Shown here: positions 1,295-15,698 of the stretch, piece by piece
Position numbering within the stretch: the stretch's first letter is position 1
Layout: each line of letters starts with the position of its first letter
Assembly (NCBI GenBank): GCA_021157415.1
Contig: JAGGWN010000094.1
Coordinates: 1 to 33,891 of the forward strand
Reading direction: 5' to 3'
DNA: 33,891 nt
From: Bacteroidales bacterium
GTDB lineage: Bacteria > Bacteroidota > Bacteroidia > Bacteroidales > VadinHA17
Made by a program: the position numbers and the translations under genes
The notes under the pieces: model-generated
What the model was told of the DNA's origin: nothing
Seen by the model: only the letters and a program-made list of their open reading frames with translations
Database searches by the model: none

Positions 1295-1302
1295 TACCTT
1301 TG
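1295..1302 (+). promoter_or_regulatory. Bacteroidota-type -7 box (TACCTTTG) before rsgA
   Basis: TACCTTTG matches the TAnnTTTG consensus exactly. It lies 15 nt before the GTG at 1318. It contains the TTG at 1300, so that TTG is unlikely to be the rsgA start. No good -33 TTTG is seen at the usual 19-21 nt spacing. Confidence 0.5.
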
Positions 1303-1317
1303 TGGAAATTTCCTATC

Positions 1318-2244
1318 GTGAAAACAGGAAGAGTTACAAAAGCTACCGGACGCTGGTACATTGTTGAAACGGAAGATCACAGAAAATTCCGCTGCGCTGT
1401 TAAGGGAAGTTTTCGGATCAAAGGAATCCGCCTCTCTAACCCAGTAGTGGTAGGGGATTATGTTACTTTCGAACCGGATCCTCCGGGGGAAACGGGACTG
1501 ATTACCCATGTCCGGAAACGAAAGAATTATATCATACGAAAATCAACCAATTTATCCTATGAAGCGCAAATCATCGCAGCTAATATTGATCAGGCTTTTC
1601 TGATCGCTTCCCTGGTAAAACCCAAAACCCTTTTACCCTTCATCGACCGTTTTCTGGTAGCGGCAGAAGCTTACCGTATTCCGGTAATTCTTATTTTTAA
1701 CAAGACAGATCTGCATGGGGAAACAGAAAACCTTGAACTGAAAAAACTGACGGACATCTATGAAAATATTGGTTACAAAGTCTTGCATACTTCTGTGCCC
1801 CAACGAAAAAATCTGGAAAAAGTTAAAGAGCTTTTGATAAACCGTACCACCCTGCTTTCAGGAAATTCGGGGGTAGGAAAAACATCTCTTATCAATGCGC
1901 TCGAACCCTCCCTGAACCTCAAGACAAAACCGGTATCCCGGTCACATCAAACCGGAAAACACACAACCACCTATGCGGAATTGTTTCCTTTAAGTTTCGG
2001 TGGGCATATCATAGATACCCCCGGAATCAGAGGCTTCGGGCTGGTGGATACTGATAAAAATGAAATCTATCATTTTTTCCCGGAGATCTTCAAAATGGCA
2101 AAAGAATGCAACTATTACAACTGTACACACACTCACGAACCTGGTTGTGCCGTGAGAGAAGCTGTAGAAAAAGGATCAATTGCCGAATCGAGATATAACA
2201 GTTACCTCGATTTGTATTTTGATAAAGAAAAAAAATACAGATAA
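1318..2244 (+). CDS. rsgA: Ribosome small-subunit-dependent GTPase A (RsgA/YjeQ)
   Basis: This late 30S-maturation GTPase couples GTP hydrolysis to release of assembly factors. The circularly permuted GTPase order is visible: G4 NKTD (residues 128-131), then the P-loop GNSGVGKTS (182-190), then G3 DTPG (233-236). An N-terminal OB-fold precedes them (about 1-70). The C-terminal zinc site C-x4-C-x-H-x5-C is complete (C264, C269, H271, C277). The length of 308 aa is normal. I chose GTG 1318 because translation from it begins MKTGRVTKATG, the usual N-terminus, whereas the longer TTG start at 1300 falls inside the promoter box. It stands alone between a transporter and a sensor kinase with no functional link visible. 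Confidence 0.95.
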   Translation: MKTGRVTKATGRWYIVETEDHRKFRCAVKGSFRIKGIRLSNPVVVGDYVTFEPDPPGETGLITHVRKRKNYIIRKSTNLSYEAQIIAANIDQAFLIASLVKPKTLLPFIDRFLVAAEAYRIPVILIFNKTDLHGETENLELKKLTDIYENIGYKVLHTSVPQRKNLEKVKELLINRTTLLSGNSGVGKTSLINALEPSLNLKTKPVSRSHQTGKHTTTYAELFPLSFGGHIIDTPGIRGFGLVDTDKNEIYHFFPEIFKMAKECNYYNCTHTHEPGCAVREAVEKGSIAESRYNSYLDLYFDKEKKYR

Positions 2245-2306: not shown

Positions 2307-5159
2307 ATGAAAAAAATATACATTCTAATACCGCTGATCATTGCTATTATTATCGCTTCGAATGTTTATTATTATCTGAATATCTACCATTTACAAGTAA
2401 ACTTTCAAAAAAATTTCCTTTTAAAACAAACCCAGATTTCCGGGTATGAAATCGAAAAAACCGGGCAGGATTTTTTAAGCGACCTGAATTTTATTCTGTT
2501 TTCCGAAAACATCAACAAGTTTTTTTCAGACCCGATTGCTAAAGAAGAGGTTTCGCGGAAGATGGAGATCTTCTATACAAAATATCAGAATCTGATCACC
2601 GGGATCAACCTTTATGACACTCACCGGAACAGTTTTACCTTCTACAAGGATAACACAAACAAACGTATCTCCAATATCTTCATTACCCGGGAACAGAAAG
2701 CATTGGTGTCCAAAGAAGAGATTCGTTATGAAAATGGGCATTATGCCTATTATCTGCCTGTTTTTTTTAATAACCAGGTAAATGGGAATATCGTTGTCAT
2801 GCTGAATTATCAAAAATATATCGGATCCGTTTTTGAAAAGTCCCACCTGGGGGATATACAATGGCAATGGTTATTAGATGAAAAAGGAAGGATATTGTTT
2901 AGCAACCTTCATACAGACAGCCTTCGGATTAGGGAGCTCGACAGGATCGCTGGGGATATCAAGAACGGACATCAGGGAACGTTACAACACAAAGTGATTA
3001 TCTCGGGCCATGAAACAAATATTATATCTGCATACTATCCTGCCCATTTTTTAAGCAGGGATTTTGGCATCGTCTTCTCTCTTCAGAACGATGTAATTCA
3101 GAAAACCATCATCAAAAATGCCATAATCATAGCAACCTTAACGTTGGTACTGATTATACTGATTATCATTCTTTTTGTGCTTTTTATCTCCCGCCAGAAA
3201 ACAGAAGAAAGAAAAGTTAAAAACTCAGAACAAAACCTGCAGAAAATCCTGGAGAATATCCCCATTGGAATCCTGATACTGAATAAGGACCGCCGCATCT
3301 TATTTTTGAACCACCGGGCCAGGGAGACTTTTTCCGAAACGGTAGAAGAACTGAAAGAAGGACAGGTAATTGGAAACTGGTTCTTTGAAGGAACCCGGAA
3401 TCAGATTAAGGAATCTCTGGGTTTGGGTATTGATATGAGAGATTTTCTTGTTTTGCGCAAGGATACTTCCGAATGGGTCCTGCTCAAAGAAGAAATTCCT
3501 ATTGTTTTCCACGACCAAGAGGCCACCCTACAGGCGTTAATAGATGTCACACCCCTGGAAAAAGCACGTCGTCAGGAAGCCGCTGCCGTAAAAGCCAAAA
3601 CTGAAATGCTGGTCAACATGAGTCAGGAAATAAGAATCCCCCTTGGGAATATCCTGGACAAAACCAGCTCCCTGTTGCATGCCCACAACAAACCGGACGA
3701 GTCCTTTTTAAAAGATATTAAATATTCAGCGGATCTCCTGATATCCATCGTGGACGACATCCTTGAATTCTCAAAAATCGAAGCCGGAAAGATGATGCTT
3801 GAAGAGATTCCTTTTAAGCTTCGCTCCGAAATTAAAATCGTATTTAATAAATTCAAACCAAAAGCCGAAGAAAAGGGAATCAAACTGATAACCATTTTTG
3901 ATGAAAATGTACGCAATAATTTTATTGGCGATCCTTTCAACATCCGTCAGATTCTGTCCCGGCTGGTGGAAAATGCCATCAACTATACGGATCAAGGGAT
4001 GGTAAAAATCTTCGTTTCGCAGACACCCGAAGTTTACGGAAAATTATATCTTCATTTTGAAATTTCAGATACGGGAGGTGGTTTATCCCCGGAACAACTC
4101 GACAAATTCAACCAGAAAGATATTCATTCAACCAACATTGCCGCCAACGGTAAAAAATACTGGACCGGGCTGGGGATTCCCATTACCATTCAACTTATTG
4201 ACATGTTGAACGGGGATATCAACTTCGTCAGTCCTTCCTCCCTGAGCAAGGAAATAGGGGAAGATAAAGCAACAGGACCAGGGACTACCGTCCAGGTGAA
4301 AATTCCCGTTTTTTCCAATGAGCATTTTCAAAAAGATATAGACATAAGCAACATTACACAATATTCTCAGATCCGTGCCTTAATCATTAAAAACAATGAT
4401 GATAATGACAACGCCATCCAGGAACAGCTAAAACAATTCGGGGTACATGCCATTATGAATTTTTATATGGAGAAAACCGTGCATTTACTGGAAAGCAACT
4501 CTTCCAACCCTGAACAACGATATCACCTTTTAATCATCAAAGATTCCCCCACTTTTGATGGTTTTGAGTTGCTCTATACATTAAATGAACGTAAGCTGAC
4601 CAACAAATATATTATCATCCTGACCAGCTCCAATGACAAAAAGGGGAATTACACCCGTGCACGCAAACTGGGAGCTGATTATTACCTGATTGAACCTGTT
4701 CAGGGTTCCGAGATTTTCAACATCATCCAGGACAATTTCACCTCGATTGAAATAGAGAGGACCGCTGCCAAGAACCTGGAAGAAATTCCCCGTTCCATGA
4801 AAATTCTTGTTGCCGAAGACAATACCATCAATCAGAAGGTCTTGCAGGTTTATTTTAAAAACCTGGGGTTCGAAATTGACATTGCCGACGATGGTTCCTC
4901 TGCAGTGGAAAAAGCAAAAAAGCAACAATACGATCTTATCCTGATGGATGTGATGATGCCCATCATGGATGGCTGGGAAGCTACAAGAGCTTTAAGAAAA
5001 CTTGGCATTGAGATTCCGATAATTGCTGTTACGGCGGATGTTTCCGAAGAAACAAAAAACCGTTCCATTGAAACCGGCATGAATGACTATATTCCCAAAC
5101 CGGTTAAAATAGATGATATAAAAAGAATCCTGGTAAAATGGTTTTCTATTAATTCATGA
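2307..5159 (+). CDS. Hybrid sensor histidine kinase / two-receiver protein lacking the phospho-acceptor His
   Basis: The order of parts is: TM1 (about 4-24), a periplasmic sensor region (25-270), TM2 (about 272-294), a PAS-like domain (about 305-425), a HisKA dimerization helix, HATPase_c, receiver 1 (about 688-805) and receiver 2 (about 832-945). The HATPase looks intact, with the N-box ENAINYTDQG, G1 DTGGGL and G2 TGLGI. In the H-box, however, the expected His is Gln440 (NMSQEIRIPL; codon cag at 3624-3626). Receiver 1 is degenerate: the N-terminal acidic pair is replaced by KNN (695-697) and the conserved Lys by Glu796, although Asp746 remains. Receiver 2 is canonical (AEDN, phospho-site Asp881 in LMDVMMP, KPV). 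It may therefore act as a kinase-dead scaffold, a phosphatase, or an acceptor of phosphate from a partner kinase. The adjacent mnmH offers no clue to the signal. Confidence 0.9.
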   Translation: MKKIYILIPLIIAIIIASNVYYYLNIYHLQVNFQKNFLLKQTQISGYEIEKTGQDFLSDLNFILFSENINKFFSDPIAKEEVSRKMEIFYTKYQNLITGINLYDTHRNSFTFYKDNTNKRISNIFITREQKALVSKEEIRYENGHYAYYLPVFFNNQVNGNIVVMLNYQKYIGSVFEKSHLGDIQWQWLLDEKGRILFSNLHTDSLRIRELDRIAGDIKNGHQGTLQHKVIISGHETNIISAYYPAHFLSRDFGIVFSLQNDVIQKTIIKNAIIIATLTLVLIILIIILFVLFISRQKTEERKVKNSEQNLQKILENIPIGILILNKDRRILFLNHRARETFSETVEELKEGQVIGNWFFEGTRNQIKESLGLGIDMRDFLVLRKDTSEWVLLKEEIPIVFHDQEATLQALIDVTPLEKARRQEAAAVKAKTEMLVNMSQEIRIPLGNILDKTSSLLHAHNKPDESFLKDIKYSADLLISIVDDILEFSKIEAGKMMLEEIPFKLRSEIKIVFNKFKPKAEEKGIKLITIFDENVRNNFIGDPFNIRQILSRLVENAINYTDQGMVKIFVSQTPEVYGKLYLHFEISDTGGGLSPEQLDKFNQKDIHSTNIAANGKKYWTGLGIPITIQLIDMLNGDINFVSPSSLSKEIGEDKATGPGTTVQVKIPVFSNEHFQKDIDISNITQYSQIRALIIKNNDDNDNAIQEQLKQFGVHAIMNFYMEKTVHLLESNSSNPEQRYHLLIIKDSPTFDGFELLYTLNERKLTNKYIIILTSSNDKKGNYTRARKLGADYYLIEPVQGSEIFNIIQDNFTSIEIERTAAKNLEEIPRSMKILVAEDNTINQKVLQVYFKNLGFEIDIADDGSSAVEKAKKQQYDLILMDVMMPIMDGWEATRALRKLGIEIPIIAVTADVSEETKNRSIETGMNDYIPKPVKIDDIKRILVKWFSINS

Positions 5160-5239: not shown

Positions 5240-6280
5240 ATGCAAAAAACCATATCCATACAGGAGTTCCTTGAATTGGCCGGCCGTTACCCTGTTGTAG
5301 ATGTGCGGTCTCCGGCAGAATTTGATCATGGCCATTTCCCGGAAGCCTGTAACATCCCTTTGTTCAGTAATGAAGAAAGAGCCATTGTCGGAACGATCTT
5401 TACAAGGGAGAATCCGGAAAAGGCACTTAAAGAAGGATTGAAGATCGTGGGGCCCAAAATGGTTTCTTTCGTCGAGATGGCCCGGAATATTGCACGTCAC
5501 AACACCTTGCTGCTGTATTGCTGGCGGGGAGGGAAACGCAGCCACTCCTTGGCCTGGCTTTTTGAAACGGCAGGGATGAATGTCTATGTGCTGGAAGGAG
5601 GTTATCGCGCTTACCGCAGACACCTGAAAGCCTCTTTTTGTAAACCTCTCCCAATGATAATTGTCGGAGGGATGACCGGCTCGGGAAAGACAGAAATCCT
5701 ATATGCATTGCAGAAAAGAGGAGAACAGATCATCGACCTGGAGGGTCTTGCCAATCATAAAGGATCTGTTTTCGGCTCGCTGGGACAGGCAAAACAACCA
5801 ACCACCGAACAGTTTGAAAATAACCTTTTCCTGGTTTGGAACCGGCTCAACCCCCATAAAACAATCTGGATAGAAGACGAGAGCAAAGCCGTGGGCAGGG
5901 TGTATATTCCGGATGAATTGTTCAATCAGATGAAAACAGCACCTTTGGTTGATATCGCGTTGAATAGAAATTACAGAATTGAACGACTGGTAAGGGATTA
6001 TGCCGGATTTAACATAGAGGATTTAATTGTTTCCGTACAAAAGATTGAACGCCGGCTGGGGGGGCTGAATGCCAGTAGATGTATAGAAGCAATACGTAAC
6101 AAGGACTTCCCCAAAGCTGCAGATATCCTGCTCTATTATTATGATAAAACATACAGACATGCTATGTCGTCCCATCGCAGAGAAAAAATCATTCAGGTTG
6201 ATCTGACCGGAAATGATCCGGAGATTAATGCCGGAATCATCCTTTCCAAAACACGGGAGCTACAGGGTGATAACGCCTGA
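5240..6280 (+). CDS. mnmH: tRNA 2-selenouridine synthase (MnmH/SelU)
   Basis: The enzyme replaces sulfur by selenium in 2-thiouridine at the tRNA wobble position, by way of a geranylated intermediate, using selenophosphate. The N-terminal rhodanese domain has DVRSPAEFDHGH and the catalytic loop YCWRGGKRS with Cys94. The C-terminal P-loop domain has GGMTGSGKT at 143-151, followed by the family signature IDLEGLANHKGS and the motif EDESKAVG. The length of 346 aa is typical. The ATG at 5240 places the rhodanese domain at the correct distance. No selD (selenophosphate synthetase) lies in this window, so whether the product is seleno- or only geranyl-2-thiouridine cannot be judged here. Confidence 0.93.
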   Translation: MQKTISIQEFLELAGRYPVVDVRSPAEFDHGHFPEACNIPLFSNEERAIVGTIFTRENPEKALKEGLKIVGPKMVSFVEMARNIARHNTLLLYCWRGGKRSHSLAWLFETAGMNVYVLEGGYRAYRRHLKASFCKPLPMIIVGGMTGSGKTEILYALQKRGEQIIDLEGLANHKGSVFGSLGQAKQPTTEQFENNLFLVWNRLNPHKTIWIEDESKAVGRVYIPDELFNQMKTAPLVDIALNRNYRIERLVRDYAGFNIEDLIVSVQKIERRLGGLNASRCIEAIRNKDFPKAADILLYYYDKTYRHAMSSHRREKIIQVDLTGNDPEINAGIILSKTRELQGDNA

Positions 6281-6401: not shown

Positions 6402-7097
6402 ATGATTGAAACATTCGGAACCATCACCAAAGAGGAAAAACTTCAGAGCCTGCAGTCCCATATCCTCGAAAACACATTTGTTTTGGAAAGTACGGCTCCT
6501 TTCCCTGGTTATCATGGAGAGAACCTCCCCGAACCCCAAAAACCGGGATATATTTTCCTGGTAACCCGGGTCAGGTACAACCTGGAAAAGATCATTCGTA
6601 CAGCCAAAGAGATCAGGAATTACTTCCAACCGCCTTTTGGTGCCCGGCCTGCAGAACTGCACATGTACAATATGGTATATCCTGTAATCCGTCTTAACCA
6701 TCTCGAAGAATATAAACATATTGCAGAATTACAACAATGGTTTGAAGACCTGGGCATCGGTTTTATGAAGAAAAAAAAATTCAATAAACCGGCTCTTATT
6801 ATGGTGACAAAGCATTTTGGTCTCGAACAAATCGAAGAGGGGGTTTTTAAGGACATAAATGATCCTCTTATGCATTATCTGGAAATCCCGGTGGCTCTTT
6901 CGTGGAAAGTTTTTGAAGCCATCACAAATAAGATCAAGAACAACCTTGAAAATAATAACTTTGATGCTGCACTCGGTGTTCTTTATATTCGGGATATTAT
7001 GGATATGATCCGGATTTACGAAAACAATCCCGGAATCGGGAAGCTTGTTTCCTTACGGAAAATGTATCTCGACAAAATACGCAAGACTCGTTCTTAA
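6402..7097 (+). CDS. Conserved-looking hypothetical protein, 231 aa
   Basis: I do not recognise a family. The protein is soluble, with no signal peptide and no membrane segment. It has mixed alpha/beta character: a beta-rich middle with the stretch PGYIFLVTRVRYNLEKI, an LHMYNMVYPVIRL segment, and a helical, lysine/asparagine-rich C-terminus (about 165-231). It contains only two conspicuous low-complexity bits, KKKK near residue 125 and LENNN near 186. The ATG at 6402 is the first in-frame start after a 121-nt gap from mnmH. The stop at 7097 is only 5 nt from the stop of the convergent U32 gene. Codon use looks like that of its neighbours, so the gene is probably real. Confidence 0.65.
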   Translation: MIETFGTITKEEKLQSLQSHILENTFVLESTAPFPGYHGENLPEPQKPGYIFLVTRVRYNLEKIIRTAKEIRNYFQPPFGARPAELHMYNMVYPVIRLNHLEEYKHIAELQQWFEDLGIGFMKKKKFNKPALIMVTKHFGLEQIEEGVFKDINDPLMHYLEIPVALSWKVFEAITNKIKNNLENNNFDAALGVLYIRDIMDMIRIYENNPGIGKLVSLRKMYLDKIRKTRS

Positions 7098-8386: not shown

Positions 8387-9523
8387 TTATTTGGGTAGCA
8401 CAATCCGGAAAACGGTCCCCTTGCCCGCTTCTGAATAATTGATAAACAGCTTTCCCTTATGATATTCCTCAATAATCCTCCTGGATAATGTCAGACCCAA
8501 ACCCCATCCGCGATTTTTAGTGGTATATCCGGGTTTGAAAATGGTCTTGAATTTCGACTTTGGAATACCGCTTCCGTGATCCTCCACATCGACATAAACA
8601 AATTGCGTATTGTCTGTAATATGAATATCTATACTTCCCCGTCCCTTCATAGCATCAACAGCATTCTTGCAAAGGTTTTCGATCACCCATTCAAACAGTT
8701 CCGCATTCACAGGGACTAAAAACTCTTCCTCAGGATCGAAGTGCAAATTAAATTTAACTTTTTCCGAGGTCCTGCGAATCATATAATCCATCACGTTCCG
8801 GATGATTTTCTTCAGATCATCCTCTTTCATTACAGGCTTAGATCCTATTTTAGAGAATCTCTCCGTTATTTTGCCCAGTCTTTCTATGTCTTTCTCAAGC
8901 TCTTGCATCAGTTCCGGATCCGAATTTTTGTTTTTCATGATTTCCAGCCAGGCCATCAGCGACGAAGTGGGAGTACCAAGTTGATGAGCCGTCTCCCTGG
9001 ATAAGCCCAGCCACACCTGATCCTGCTCGGATTTTCTGGCAGCACTGAAGGCAAGATAGGCCACAAGAATAAATAAAACGATCACAAATAACTGGACATA
9101 CGGAAAATACTTTAACTTGGTAAGTACTGTCGAGTCTTTATAGTAGATAAAGTTTTTTATACTATTACCAACATCTATCTCAATGGGAGGGTGCTCTTTC
9201 CCCATCTTCCGTAATTGTCGGTAATAATATTCCTTGTTCTGCAATCTTTTCTCATCCATATTACGGCTGGACACAAGCGTTGAGTCTTCGTCAATCAACA
9301 ATACCGGCACTGTAGTGTTATTTTCTATGATGTCAGACAAAAAACTGAAGTCAACGCTGTTACTGGTCAGGTCAAGATCGACAAGCTGCTGTGTCGCTTT
9401 GGCCCATAATTCCACCTTCTTTTTTTCTTCGTTTTTCAGCTCCTTTACCAACTTATTGGTATAATACAAGGAAGAAAAGCCGATGGCTACAGCCAACAGA
9501 AAAAGTAAAAATTTCCAGCGCAT
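8387..9523 (-). CDS. Orphan membrane sensor histidine kinase
   Basis: The 378-aa protein has TM1 at about 4-21, a roughly 115-residue extracytoplasmic domain, TM2 at about 141-160, then a kinase core. The phospho-acceptor is His180 in SRETAHQLGTP, an H-box form common in Bacteroidota kinases. The N-box (ENLCKNAVDAM), G1 (DHGSGI), F-box (FKPGYTTK) and G2 (GWGLGL) are all present, so it should be catalytically competent. There is no receiver domain, and no response regulator is encoded nearby. The only close partner is the U32 gene 9 nt downstream. The extracytoplasmic domain (VPVLLIDEDSTLVSSRN) looks PAS-like/sCache. Confidence 0.9.
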   Translation of the reverse strand: MRWKFLLFLLAVAIGFSSLYYTNKLVKELKNEEKKKVELWAKATQQLVDLDLTSNSVDFSFLSDIIENNTTVPVLLIDEDSTLVSSRNMDEKRLQNKEYYYRQLRKMGKEHPPIEIDVGNSIKNFIYYKDSTVLTKLKYFPYVQLFVIVLFILVAYLAFSAARKSEQDQVWLGLSRETAHQLGTPTSSLMAWLEIMKNKNSDPELMQELEKDIERLGKITERFSKIGSKPVMKEDDLKKIIRNVMDYMIRRTSEKVKFNLHFDPEEEFLVPVNAELFEWVIENLCKNAVDAMKGRGSIDIHITDNTQFVYVDVEDHGSGIPKSKFKTIFKPGYTTKNRGWGLGLTLSRRIIEEYHKGKLFINYSEAGKGTVFRIVLPK

Positions 9524-13322: not shown

Positions 13323-15659
13323 TCATGTCCGTGTTACCTTAAATCCAATAACCAACATGTCATCCACTTGTTCCTGGTTTCCCATCCATTCCAGCATGGT
13401 TTGCTCCAGGATATCCTTTTGTTTTTTCAGATCCTCGTGGCTGATCCTTAAAAGCAATTCCTTCATTTTAGAGTATTTAAATTTTTTCCCGTCCGGACCG
13501 CCAAACTGATCGGCATACCCATCTGAAAAAAGATATATCACATCATTTGCTTCCAACACAACCGAATGATTGGTATAGCAAGTCTCCGGATTTTCCAGGT
13601 AGGACCCGACAGGAAACTTATCTCCCTTGATCACAATCATCTCATCGTTGCGCACAATCCACAATGGATTATAGGCCCCGGAATAGTTCAGGAGACCCTT
13701 TTCCATATCTATACTGCAAAGAGCCAGATCCATACTGTCGCGCAACGCCTTCTTCTGATATTCCTTGAACATCCTTTCACTAAAACCCTTATTTAACTCA
13801 TCCAAAATCTCATTGGGTTTGATTTCCGGATTCTCTTTCAGGATCATATTTAGCAGATTGTATCCCAGCAGTGAGAGAAAAGCTCCCGGCACCCCGTGTC
13901 CGGTGGCATCCACCGCAGCCACATAGGAATACCTGCCCGATTTCCCCAGCCAGTAGAAATCGCCGCTGACGATATCCTTGGGCCTGAAAAAAATAAAACT
14001 ATCCGGTAAAATCTCCTGAATATATTTTTCATGCGGCATAAAAGCCCGCTGAATATACCTTGCATACCTTATACTATCTGTAATTTCCTTGTTTTTAATC
14101 TCTATCTCTTCTTTCTGGCGGCTCAATATTTTATTGGCTTTTTGTTTTTGCCTGTAATTCCGGTACATCAGGGCAGCCAGTAACAACACAAAAGCCAGTC
14201 CTGCCAAGATCACATTGCGCTGAAGATTTTGTTTCTCTATCTCAAGATCTTTTCTGCGCAACTGCTCGTCCTTCAGTAACAGTTCTTTTTCTTTTTGCCG
14301 GGTCTGGTATTTTGTCTCCAGCTCGGCGATCTGCTTGTGTATCTGCTCATTCATCAGGGTATCCTTGATCTCCGAATATTTAAAGTAATAATTCAGTGCT
14401 TTTTTATAGTTCTTTTGTTGCTGATAGATCCTGGCAAGTCCAGCATAATCATCCTGGACGAGCCGCAGGATATTAAGATCCCGGGCTATGGCAAGACTTT
14501 TTAGATAATTGCTTTCCGCCTTCTTTTCATTTCCTTTTTTCCAATACGCTTCTCCGGTCTTGGAATAACAGGATGCCATTCCTTTCATGTCCTTTGTTTG
14601 GCTGTAAAGGGCCAAGGCCTTTTCAAAGAAACGCAGTGCGGAATCCAGCAGATTTTGTTTGAAATAAAGTTCTCCCATATTCTCAAAGGTTGCCGCCACC
14701 CCCGGAGTATTGTTGAGCTCCTGTTCAATAAGCAGGGATCGCGAAAAATTGGTATCTGCCGCTTCATGCCTTCCCAAAATAATAAAGACATTTCCCAGTT
14801 CGCGTAAGGTAACAGCCATATCACTTTTATCTCCGATCTTCTCCTGCAATTTCAATGCCTCCAGATAATATTCCTCCGCCTGGGAATAATTGTTTAATTC
14901 TTTATATATCTCGGCAATATTATGATACGCCCCTGCCATACCTTTCAGATTGTTGAGGTTTCTCCATAACGTCGATGCCTCAAGATAATATTTCAGGGCC
15001 TGTTGATAATCCCCCCAAATAGAATAAACCTCACCCAGATTATTCAGCGTATTGGCCATCCACTTTTTGTCTCCCAGCTCCTTTTTCAGGTCATATGACT
15101 CTCTGTAATTCCTGATAGCCTCGGGATACTCCCCCCTGAATTTGTGGATCTCTCCTATGTTGTTCAATGTATTGGCAATCCCCTGTTTATCCTTAAGAAT
15201 TTTCTTCAGTTCCAGTGATTTATTATAATAATCCAACGCTTTGCTGTAATCTCCTTCGCTGCGGTACAACACTCCCAGGTTATTCAGCGTATTGGCTATT
15301 CCTTTTTTATCACCCAGCTTCTGATAAATATTCAGGGACGCAAAATATTGCTTCTGGGCATTCGCATAATTTCCAAGGAAAAAATAAGCTTTGGCAATGT
15401 TTTGCAGAGCCAGGGCTTCCTCTTCAGGTTTTTTCATGGAACGGGCCACCCGGGCAGCTTCTTTGCCATAATCAATGGCCTCTTTGGGATCTGTTGCAAG
15501 ACTCAGGCGGGTTAATTGGTGTAATATCTCTAATTTTTCCCCTTTTTTTGAGGCCTTCAGCAGGGTTTTAAGACTGTCCGTCTGCGATTGTCCCGTACCG
15601 GAAGGAGTAAATAGTAACACACCCACACAGAGGCTGATAATTCCTATACATTTTTTCAT
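13323..15659 (-). CDS. TPR-repeat protein with C-terminal SpoIIE/PP2C phosphatase domain
   Basis: A signal-peptide-like N-terminus (MKKCIGIISLCVGVLLF) is followed by about ten TPR units (roughly residues 35-400, with repeated GDKKGIANTLNNLG-type helices). After these come a coiled coil, a TM (about 485-502), a second coiled coil and a PP2C/SpoIIE phosphatase domain (about 545-775). Metal-binding aspartates are visible in GDFYW, VDATGHGVPGAF, FSDGYADQFGG and QVDDMLV. The TPRs would sit in the periplasm and the phosphatase in the cytoplasm, probably acting on an anti-sigma-factor antagonist or other phosphoprotein. No such partner is adjacent. I start at ATG 15659; the upstream GTG 15665 adds only two residues. 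Confidence 0.92.
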   Translation of the reverse strand: MKKCIGIISLCVGVLLFTPSGTGQSQTDSLKTLLKASKKGEKLEILHQLTRLSLATDPKEAIDYGKEAARVARSMKKPEEEALALQNIAKAYFFLGNYANAQKQYFASLNIYQKLGDKKGIANTLNNLGVLYRSEGDYSKALDYYNKSLELKKILKDKQGIANTLNNIGEIHKFRGEYPEAIRNYRESYDLKKELGDKKWMANTLNNLGEVYSIWGDYQQALKYYLEASTLWRNLNNLKGMAGAYHNIAEIYKELNNYSQAEEYYLEALKLQEKIGDKSDMAVTLRELGNVFIILGRHEAADTNFSRSLLIEQELNNTPGVAATFENMGELYFKQNLLDSALRFFEKALALYSQTKDMKGMASCYSKTGEAYWKKGNEKKAESNYLKSLAIARDLNILRLVQDDYAGLARIYQQQKNYKKALNYYFKYSEIKDTLMNEQIHKQIAELETKYQTRQKEKELLLKDEQLRRKDLEIEKQNLQRNVILAGLAFVLLLAALMYRNYRQKQKANKILSRQKEEIEIKNKEITDSIRYARYIQRAFMPHEKYIQEILPDSFIFFRPKDIVSGDFYWLGKSGRYSYVAAVDATGHGVPGAFLSLLGYNLLNMILKENPEIKPNEILDELNKGFSERMFKEYQKKALRDSMDLALCSIDMEKGLLNYSGAYNPLWIVRNDEMIVIKGDKFPVGSYLENPETCYTNHSVVLEANDVIYLFSDGYADQFGGPDGKKFKYSKMKELLLRISHEDLKKQKDILEQTMLEWMGNQEQVDDMLVIGFKVTRT

Positions 15660-15698
15660 AGACACCCTTGCCTGATCCGGGGAACTTTCCCCATGGCC

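Follow-up and report, generated by a model that had tools for sequence, protein, structure and literature searches.

A hybrid histidine kinase without its catalytic histidine beside rsgA in Bacteroidales

The gene and its altered kinase residues

The gene treated here encodes a hybrid histidine kinase that carries Gln in place of the catalytic His. It lies on the forward strand of a 33,891-nucleotide stretch, referred to as a whole as the window, of contig JAGGWN010000094.1 (assembly GCA_021157415.1), which comes from a Bacteroidales bacterium of the VadinHA17 lineage. A first interpretation made from the letters alone (the sequence-only reading) had placed the feature at 3600-5159; the gene instead starts at 2307, and a sensor and a PAS domain stand in front of that part. 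Comparison with orthologues indicates that the pseudokinase state of this orthologous hybrid kinase is real, selected and recurrent. Residue equivalences were obtained by aligning E. coli K-12 EnvZ to the window protein, and the following features were assigned.

2307..5159, + strand: whole gene, 950 aa, with sensor, PAS, HisKA, HATPase, REC1 and REC2 (open reading frame; Pfam HisKA 430-494, HATPase_c 541-668, PAS_8 311-349 and two Response_reg stretches)
2307..3221, + strand: N-terminal membrane sensor, residues 1-305 (AlphaFold2 model and Pfam; predicted membrane placement)
3237..3353, + strand: PAS domain, residues 311-349 (Pfam PAS_8, E 1.6e-5)
3594..3788, + strand: HisKA (DHp) domain, residues 430-494 (PF00512, 36.4 bits, above cut-off)
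3624..3626, + strand: Gln440 (CAG) instead of the catalytic His, in NMSQEIRIPL (alignment to EnvZ H243)
3636..3638, + strand: Ile444 instead of the phosphatase Thr at the H+4 position (alignment to EnvZ T247)
3927..4310, + strand: HATPase_c (CA) domain, residues 541-668 (Pfam, E 2.3e-13)
3960..3962, + strand: Arg552 instead of the first N-box Asn (alignment to EnvZ N343)
4383..4727, + strand: REC1, degenerate receiver with Asn696/697, Asp746 and Glu796 (PF00072, 26.4 bits in the genome scan, under the Pfam cut-off of 30.2)
4692..4694, + strand: Glu796 instead of the receiver Lys in REC1 (sequence alignment)
4803..5129, + strand: REC2, canonical receiver (PF00072, 101.5 bits)
4947..4949, + strand: Asp881, at which REC2 is predicted to be phosphorylated (conserved in all 105 readable family rows, as defined below)

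Three elements of the sequence-only reading were borne out by the alignments, namely the replacement of the catalytic His by Gln440, a first receiver that has Asn696/Asn697 instead of the acidic pair and lacks the Lys, and an intact second receiver, in which Glu837, Asp838, Asp881, Thr909 and Lys931 are all canonical. Not noted in that reading, the first receiver keeps its own Asp746. The same reading took the ATP-binding boxes to be intact and the loss of the phospho-acceptor to be selective, and both statements had to be given up. The first N-box Asn is Arg552 and residues 597-603 diverge (QLDKFNQ, compared with, for example, KIGKIFD in His-bearing relatives), though Asn556, which aligns to EnvZ N347, the DxGxG and GLG motifs and with them Asp588, Gly590, Gly592, Gly621 and Gly623 are present; in addition, Thr444 has become Ile. 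The window protein is thus altered at all three EnvZ positions H243, T247 and N343. In EnvZ, H243A is reported to abolish kinase and T247A phosphatase activity (PMC5727384) and N343K to knock out kinase activity, and N343K/A was used to eliminate ATP binding together with kinase activity (PMC8971529). Autophosphorylation is not expected of the window protein, which has neither His440 nor Asn552, and without Thr444 canonical transmitter phosphatase activity is not expected either. By its residues, REC2 holds everything that is required for Asp phosphorylation. A canonical hybrid histidine kinase combines the catalytic His with an intact N-box, as 34 of 133 counted rows do and the window protein does not; by sequence the latter falls with the pseudo-histidine kinases, which lack the phospho-acceptor His or ATP-site residues, through both Q440 and R552.

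Gln440 appears to be more than chance, because the genome that holds the window yielded 19 HisKA domains and 18 of them carry His, the window protein being the sole exception, and because His-less HisKA domains made up 0.9% (722/76,471) of a published survey (PMC12632262).

In the AlphaFold2 model the sensor consists of an alpha/beta domain between two long helices, and a dCache_1 match was detected by Pfam in the sensor of 3 of 20 orthologues. Sensor residues 186-188 (Trp-Gln-Trp) are invariant across 20 aligned orthologues and are a possible ligand site common to His-bearing and His-less forms.

Residue 440 among orthologues and the order of losses

The window protein was compared with 117 genomes of its family at a match threshold of 1e-60, and the gene was matched in 111 of them (6 without match). 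The family rows analyzed below number 110, one per genome, leaving out G005, which holds only the first 200 residues, and the second fragments L040, L115 and L117; in the genome G017 a further, partial match lies on a different contig, and a strict single copy is not established there. The genomic position is well conserved: the gene directly follows rsgA in 102 of the 106 family genomes with room to tell, and mnmH lies within 1.2 kb downstream in 94 of 105 testable genomes. In the window these neighbors are:

1300..2244, + strand: rsgA, conserved upstream neighbor (TIGR00157)
5240..6280, + strand: mnmH (selU), conserved downstream neighbor (TIGR03167)

Residue 440 is Tyr in 58 rows, Phe in 23, His in 19, Gln in 6, Arg in 3 and a gap in one, which leaves 90 of 109 readable rows with a residue other than His. 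Within the window's genus, four rows have Gln and two have Arg; the neighboring genus g5 has Gln, and the same CAG codon recurs in five separate genomes, with protein identities of 64-95%. In the clade g8+g11+g15+g9 (the Tyr/Phe clade) the residue is aromatic in 79/79 readable rows. A single nucleotide change in a His codon is enough to give Gln, Arg or Tyr. The sequence-only reading had proposed an evolved pseudokinase, to be abandoned if all orthologues carried His and this strain alone Gln. The orthologues bear the proposal out, since most of the family is without His, Gln is shared by rows of the window's genus and g5, and two more rows of the genus have Arg. Neither Gln440 nor Glu796, the conservation of which it had suggested checking, is fixed: residue 440 varies among orthologues, and Glu796 is not tied to the His loss.

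A wider scan of 247 genomes of the order at 1e-110 gave matches in 47, the majority of the order being without a match at that level. Its 24 loci together with L128 provide 25 further rows, of which 24 have His and one has Lys (L248, family f15); 20 of the 25 adjoin rsgA, and four (L253, L256, L257 and L258) are remote and possibly not true orthologues. Because 24 of these 25 rows keep His, His is likely the ancestral state at residue 440. L128 and L129, which contains L010, were the only orthologues among the matches listed in a wider contig search. Two further members of family f15 (L039 and L254, about 813-815 aa) have no REC1 and carry ATP-site lesions with His present, their family mate L248 having Lys at the His site. 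One genome of family f7 (G041, L035/L249) displays the reverse pattern, with His kept (NHEISANS) and the REC2 Asp changed to Asn.

The number of losses was examined on a quick tree of 53 rows and a careful tree of 30 rows. The 53-row tree needs 5 His/not-His changes and 11 residue changes. If His is never regained, the family accounts for six losses (g1+g5; L008; L018; L010+L011; g9; g8+g11+g15), and L248 outside the family adds a seventh. On the 30-row tree, a single clade of every His-less row except g9 (11 of 12) was rejected by the approximately unbiased (AU) test (p-AU 0.000165, log-likelihood difference 580), a grouping that was picked after the tree was seen and a result with which His regain remains compatible; one loss with two regains (L009 and L016) would likewise break the 11-row clade, at fewer His/not-His steps. 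In a Sankoff count with the real residues, the 13-row clade that includes the window takes 11 steps if its base has His and 12 if it has another residue, so that losses are favored over regains by one step when actual residues are counted. The residue pattern thus needs four His losses if regain is allowed and seven if it is not. An earlier statement of at least six or seven independent losses was dropped, as His/not-His parsimony permits loss and regains in the 13-row clade.

The ATP site was scored at six positions (552, 556, 588, 590, 592 and 623) in 133 of the 138 rows, gaps having excluded the other five. His and all six residues occur together in 34 rows, His with a lesion in 10 and a lesion without His in 89. 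None of the 89 His-less rows has an intact six-residue site, and 10 of the 44 His-bearing rows miss at least one residue; the rows are related by descent and are not independent trials, and Fisher's p was therefore not used as a probability. Asn552 is lost in 13/13 rows of the clade holding the window (Arg 6, Lys 1, Gln 2, Ser 2, His 2), two of which still have His440, and in g2 and g7 Asn556 is lost and His kept. As lesions occur in His-bearing rows and no His-less row is intact, ATP-site damage probably precedes His loss. The outcome is not uniform. In g1+g5, Asn556, Asp588, Gly590, Gly592 and Gly623 are kept in 7/7 rows and Gly621 in 5/7, residue 552 is Arg or Lys in 7/7, and Thr444 is replaced by Ile, Leu or Val in 7/7. 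In the Tyr/Phe clade, Thr444 is kept in 79/80 rows and Glu441 in 79/79 readable rows, and the ATP motifs erode, with Gly592 kept in only 5/79. An intact ATP site in the window's lineage (seven rows) had been considered and was dropped once Asn552 entered the motif set.

Constraint, related systems and candidate partners

In His-less family rows, Asp881 and Asp838 are each present in 87/87 readable rows and Lys931 in 86/86; Glu441, next to the lost His, is found in 112/112 readable rows. Selection was estimated as the ratio of nonsynonymous to synonymous substitution (dN/dS), pooled over pairs (Nei-Gojobori with Jukes-Cantor) from 12 independent His-less and 5 His-bearing pairs. In the His-less pairs HisKA gave 0.060, the lowest value of the six domains, followed by REC2 (0.084), HATPase (0.094), REC1 (0.107), the sensor (0.134) and PAS (0.139), with 0.121 for the whole protein; the His-bearing pairs gave 0.159 for HisKA and 0.205 for the whole. 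HisKA without His is under strong purifying selection. In REC1 of His-bearing orthologues, the Lys is either retained or replaced by Glu, Gln, Ser, Leu, Met or His, and 45/57 His-less g8 rows have Lys there. The idea that REC1 decays because His is lost was therefore rejected, the degeneration being shared by His-bearing orthologues.

An AlphaFold2 monomer model built from 33 sequences reached a mean pLDDT of 81.1 and a pTM of 0.49, so that single-domain folds are usable and the domain arrangement is not. The best solved fold matches were ShkA (6qrj), GacS (7z8n), RetS (6dk7) and DivL (4q20). RetS has a sensor of another type than the window protein. Otherwise the architecture of RetS, a membrane sensor, HisKA, a degenerate HATPase and two receivers (PMC5992135), resembles that of the window protein, which likewise has HisKA-HATPase-REC-REC with an intact REC2; the modeled kinase core matches 6dk7 with a TM of 0.82 by target length (rmsd 3.3). 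In RetS, both GacS and HptB pass phosphate to REC2 (PMC5992135). RetS differs in keeping the phosphatase motif HExxT (T428), and by that notation a His, whereas the window protein has Ile444, the Thr of ExxT being found in the Tyr/Phe clade. No GacS-like partner was assigned to the window protein among the HisKA kinases and Hpt listed for its genome.

DivL offers a second comparison (modeled fold match to 4q20, TM 0.71 by target length). Across many species its phospho-acceptor site conserves a residue other than His, a single exception being noted in its group, and its catalytically silent core binds a phospho-receiver, DivK~P, and acts on it neither as kinase nor as phosphatase (PMC4211667). 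DivL differs in having several PAS domains and a histidine kinase module with no receiver (PMC4211667), whereas the window protein has REC1 and an invariant REC2, and in having Tyr nearly throughout, whereas Tyr, Phe, Gln, Arg and His occur within the window's orthologue group and the window protein itself has Gln. ShkA shares the order HisKA-HATPase-pseudo-receiver-receiver, and 6qrj is the best fold match of the whole model, but ShkA is catalytically active, and c-di-GMP regulates it at the pseudo-receiver (PMC12632262). A ChrS pseudokinase variant of Corynebacterium is an inactive kinase that is still needed for signaling via a second kinase (PMC9491836); it is a laboratory frameshift in the ATP-binding domain and not a natural orthologue group, and the protein as described there has no receivers. 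An EnvZ variant mutated at four positions, with all activity removed, still lowered OmpR output, possibly by sequestration (PMC8971529).

The search for a partner kinase or Hpt that the sequence-only reading had called for yielded one Hpt gene in the window's genome at E 0.01, located at C51:13027-13227 and encoding a stand-alone 136-aa protein, and the 18 other HisKA kinases, among which no partner was assigned. An Hpt match was present in 33/36 sampled family genomes. At L228 (3581-4351, G000:C51) the genome's only found Hpt is followed by a small STAS-like protein, which we take to be a STAS domain from its sequence, and a single-receiver protein and a His-bearing kinase are nearby. Within the window one candidate was recognized:

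8387..9523, - strand: His-bearing sensor kinase, 378 aa, no receiver, candidate partner only (beside a U32-family gene)

This kinase was found in 54/60 relatives, including 11/13 order genomes without a window-protein match at 1e-30, which does not support it as a dedicated partner, and it is retained as a candidate. Other genes of the window include a 231-aa conserved protein (6402-7094, +) for which neither Pfam at 1e-5 nor NCBIfam at 0.001 gave a match and which adjoins the gene in other families too, and TPR repeats fused to a SpoIIE-type phosphatase domain (13323-15665, -). Positions 1-2286 of the window are nearly identical to G006 (L119), the two differing at 3 places in the aligned portion as far as about 2285, and from about 2286 on identity drops to roughly 76-97% per 250 bases; this break at the 5' side of the gene is either a recent recombination edge or a mixed assembly.

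A proposed silent transmitter and its alternatives

The reading that we lean towards, as somewhat more likely than not, is that of an evolved hybrid-type pseudo-histidine kinase resembling DivL and RetS, a silent transmitter whose REC2 would be phosphorylated in trans. Phosphate supplied by another kinase was already part of the sequence-only reading and is here the leading proposal. The extracellular sensor would set the conformation of a catalytically silent HisKA/HATPase dimer, and REC2 would receive phosphate from another kinase or the cell's Hpt, as RetS REC2 does from GacS and HptB. The HisKA surface may bind a receiver, its own REC2 or a partner's, and leave it unchanged as in DivL, and the output would be altered partner-kinase activity or a drain of the partner's phosphate. 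During evolution, ATP-site damage would have abolished the autokinase, after which His was free for replacement. Members of the older Tyr/Phe clade, which retains ExxT, may in addition be transmitter phosphatases. Several observations weigh against this account. Position 552 joined the scoring set after Arg552 had been seen and the 0/89 depends on it, seven His-less rows having intact ATP motifs when N552 is not counted. Family f7 exhibits the opposite pattern of losses. The dN/dS estimates were made on few pairs, by simple pairwise counting. In the 13-row clade, His/not-His parsimony prefers one loss and two regains (4 changes), and regain would be odd if His were useless. No donor kinase for REC2 was found among the genome's listed HisKA kinases and Hpt, and REC2 could be kept for binding its own HisKA or another protein in an unphosphorylated state.

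A dedicated transmitter phosphatase, in which the His-less HisKA dephosphorylates REC2 or a partner's receiver through the ExxT motif, is unlikely for the group. The motif is kept in the Tyr/Phe clade; the conserved His contributes to HisKA phosphatase activity and yet is not essential (PMC12632262), and RetS acts as a transmitter phosphatase with a degenerate HATPase (PMC5992135). However, the loss of Thr444 in all seven g1+g5 rows leaves the window's own member unexplained, and DivL, with Tyr, showed no phosphatase activity (PMC4211667). Signaling by ATP-dependent conformation, the other option of the sequence-only reading, supposes that the HATPase still binds ATP and that the bound state is the signal instead of phosphotransfer. 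The ATP-site residues remaining in g1+g5, among them Asn556, DxGxG and GLG in the window protein, agree with such a switch, but Arg or Lys at 552, the site of EnvZ N343K/A (PMC8971529), weakens it to a distinctly improbable alternative, and with the ATP motifs eroding in the larger Tyr/Phe clade it cannot be a family-wide mechanism. HisKA might instead pair with a paralogous His-bearing kinase and alter its activity, REC2 being incidental, much as RetS associates with the DHp domain of GacS (7n0e was one of the fold matches) and inhibits GacS autophosphorylation (PMC5992135). That HisKA is the most constrained domain suits this heterodimer, which is nonetheless very improbable, because the phosphorylation residues of REC2 are invariant in the family beyond an incidental domain's need and no partner was found, the adjacent kinase also occurring where the window protein has no match.

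Loss of catalysis in a gene on its way out would fit the repeated loss of catalysis-relevant residues and three family members (L030, L112 and L116) whose reading frames are disrupted inside contigs, away from contig ends; with the gene present and mostly open in 111/117 genomes and a pooled dN/dS of 0.121 in His-less versus 0.205 in His-bearing pairs, plain decay is scarcely credible and was rejected. A sequencing error or private point mutation, conceivable in assemblies many of which are in many contigs, has a practically negligible chance and was likewise rejected, given the CAG codon shared by five genomes and the non-His residues across the family. Tyrosine phosphorylation as a general mechanism was rejected for the group, as Phe, Gln and Arg also occur at 440.

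Pseudo-histidine kinases are known from single cases; a search of open-licence texts found no paper on this gene, which does not imply its absence from print. Here, close orthologues at one genomic position range from complete kinases, such as those of g13 or g14, to fully silent ones, so that the order of losses and the surviving function can be compared among natural neighbors. Constraint on HisKA without His means that the fold does something besides carrying phosphate, and the invariant REC2 indicates which function survives. Tentatively, and with rather less confidence than in the silent transmitter itself, one vertically inherited sensor beside rsgA may have turned repeatedly (four to seven times) into a silent phosphate sink or phospho-receiver reader, always losing the ATP site, then His, and never REC2. 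If true, the group would preserve, as a natural series, all intermediates in the birth of a pseudokinase, with two end states, one ATP-site-eroded and keeping ExxT (Tyr/Phe), the other Thr-less and keeping the ATP motifs (Gln/Arg, the window's own).

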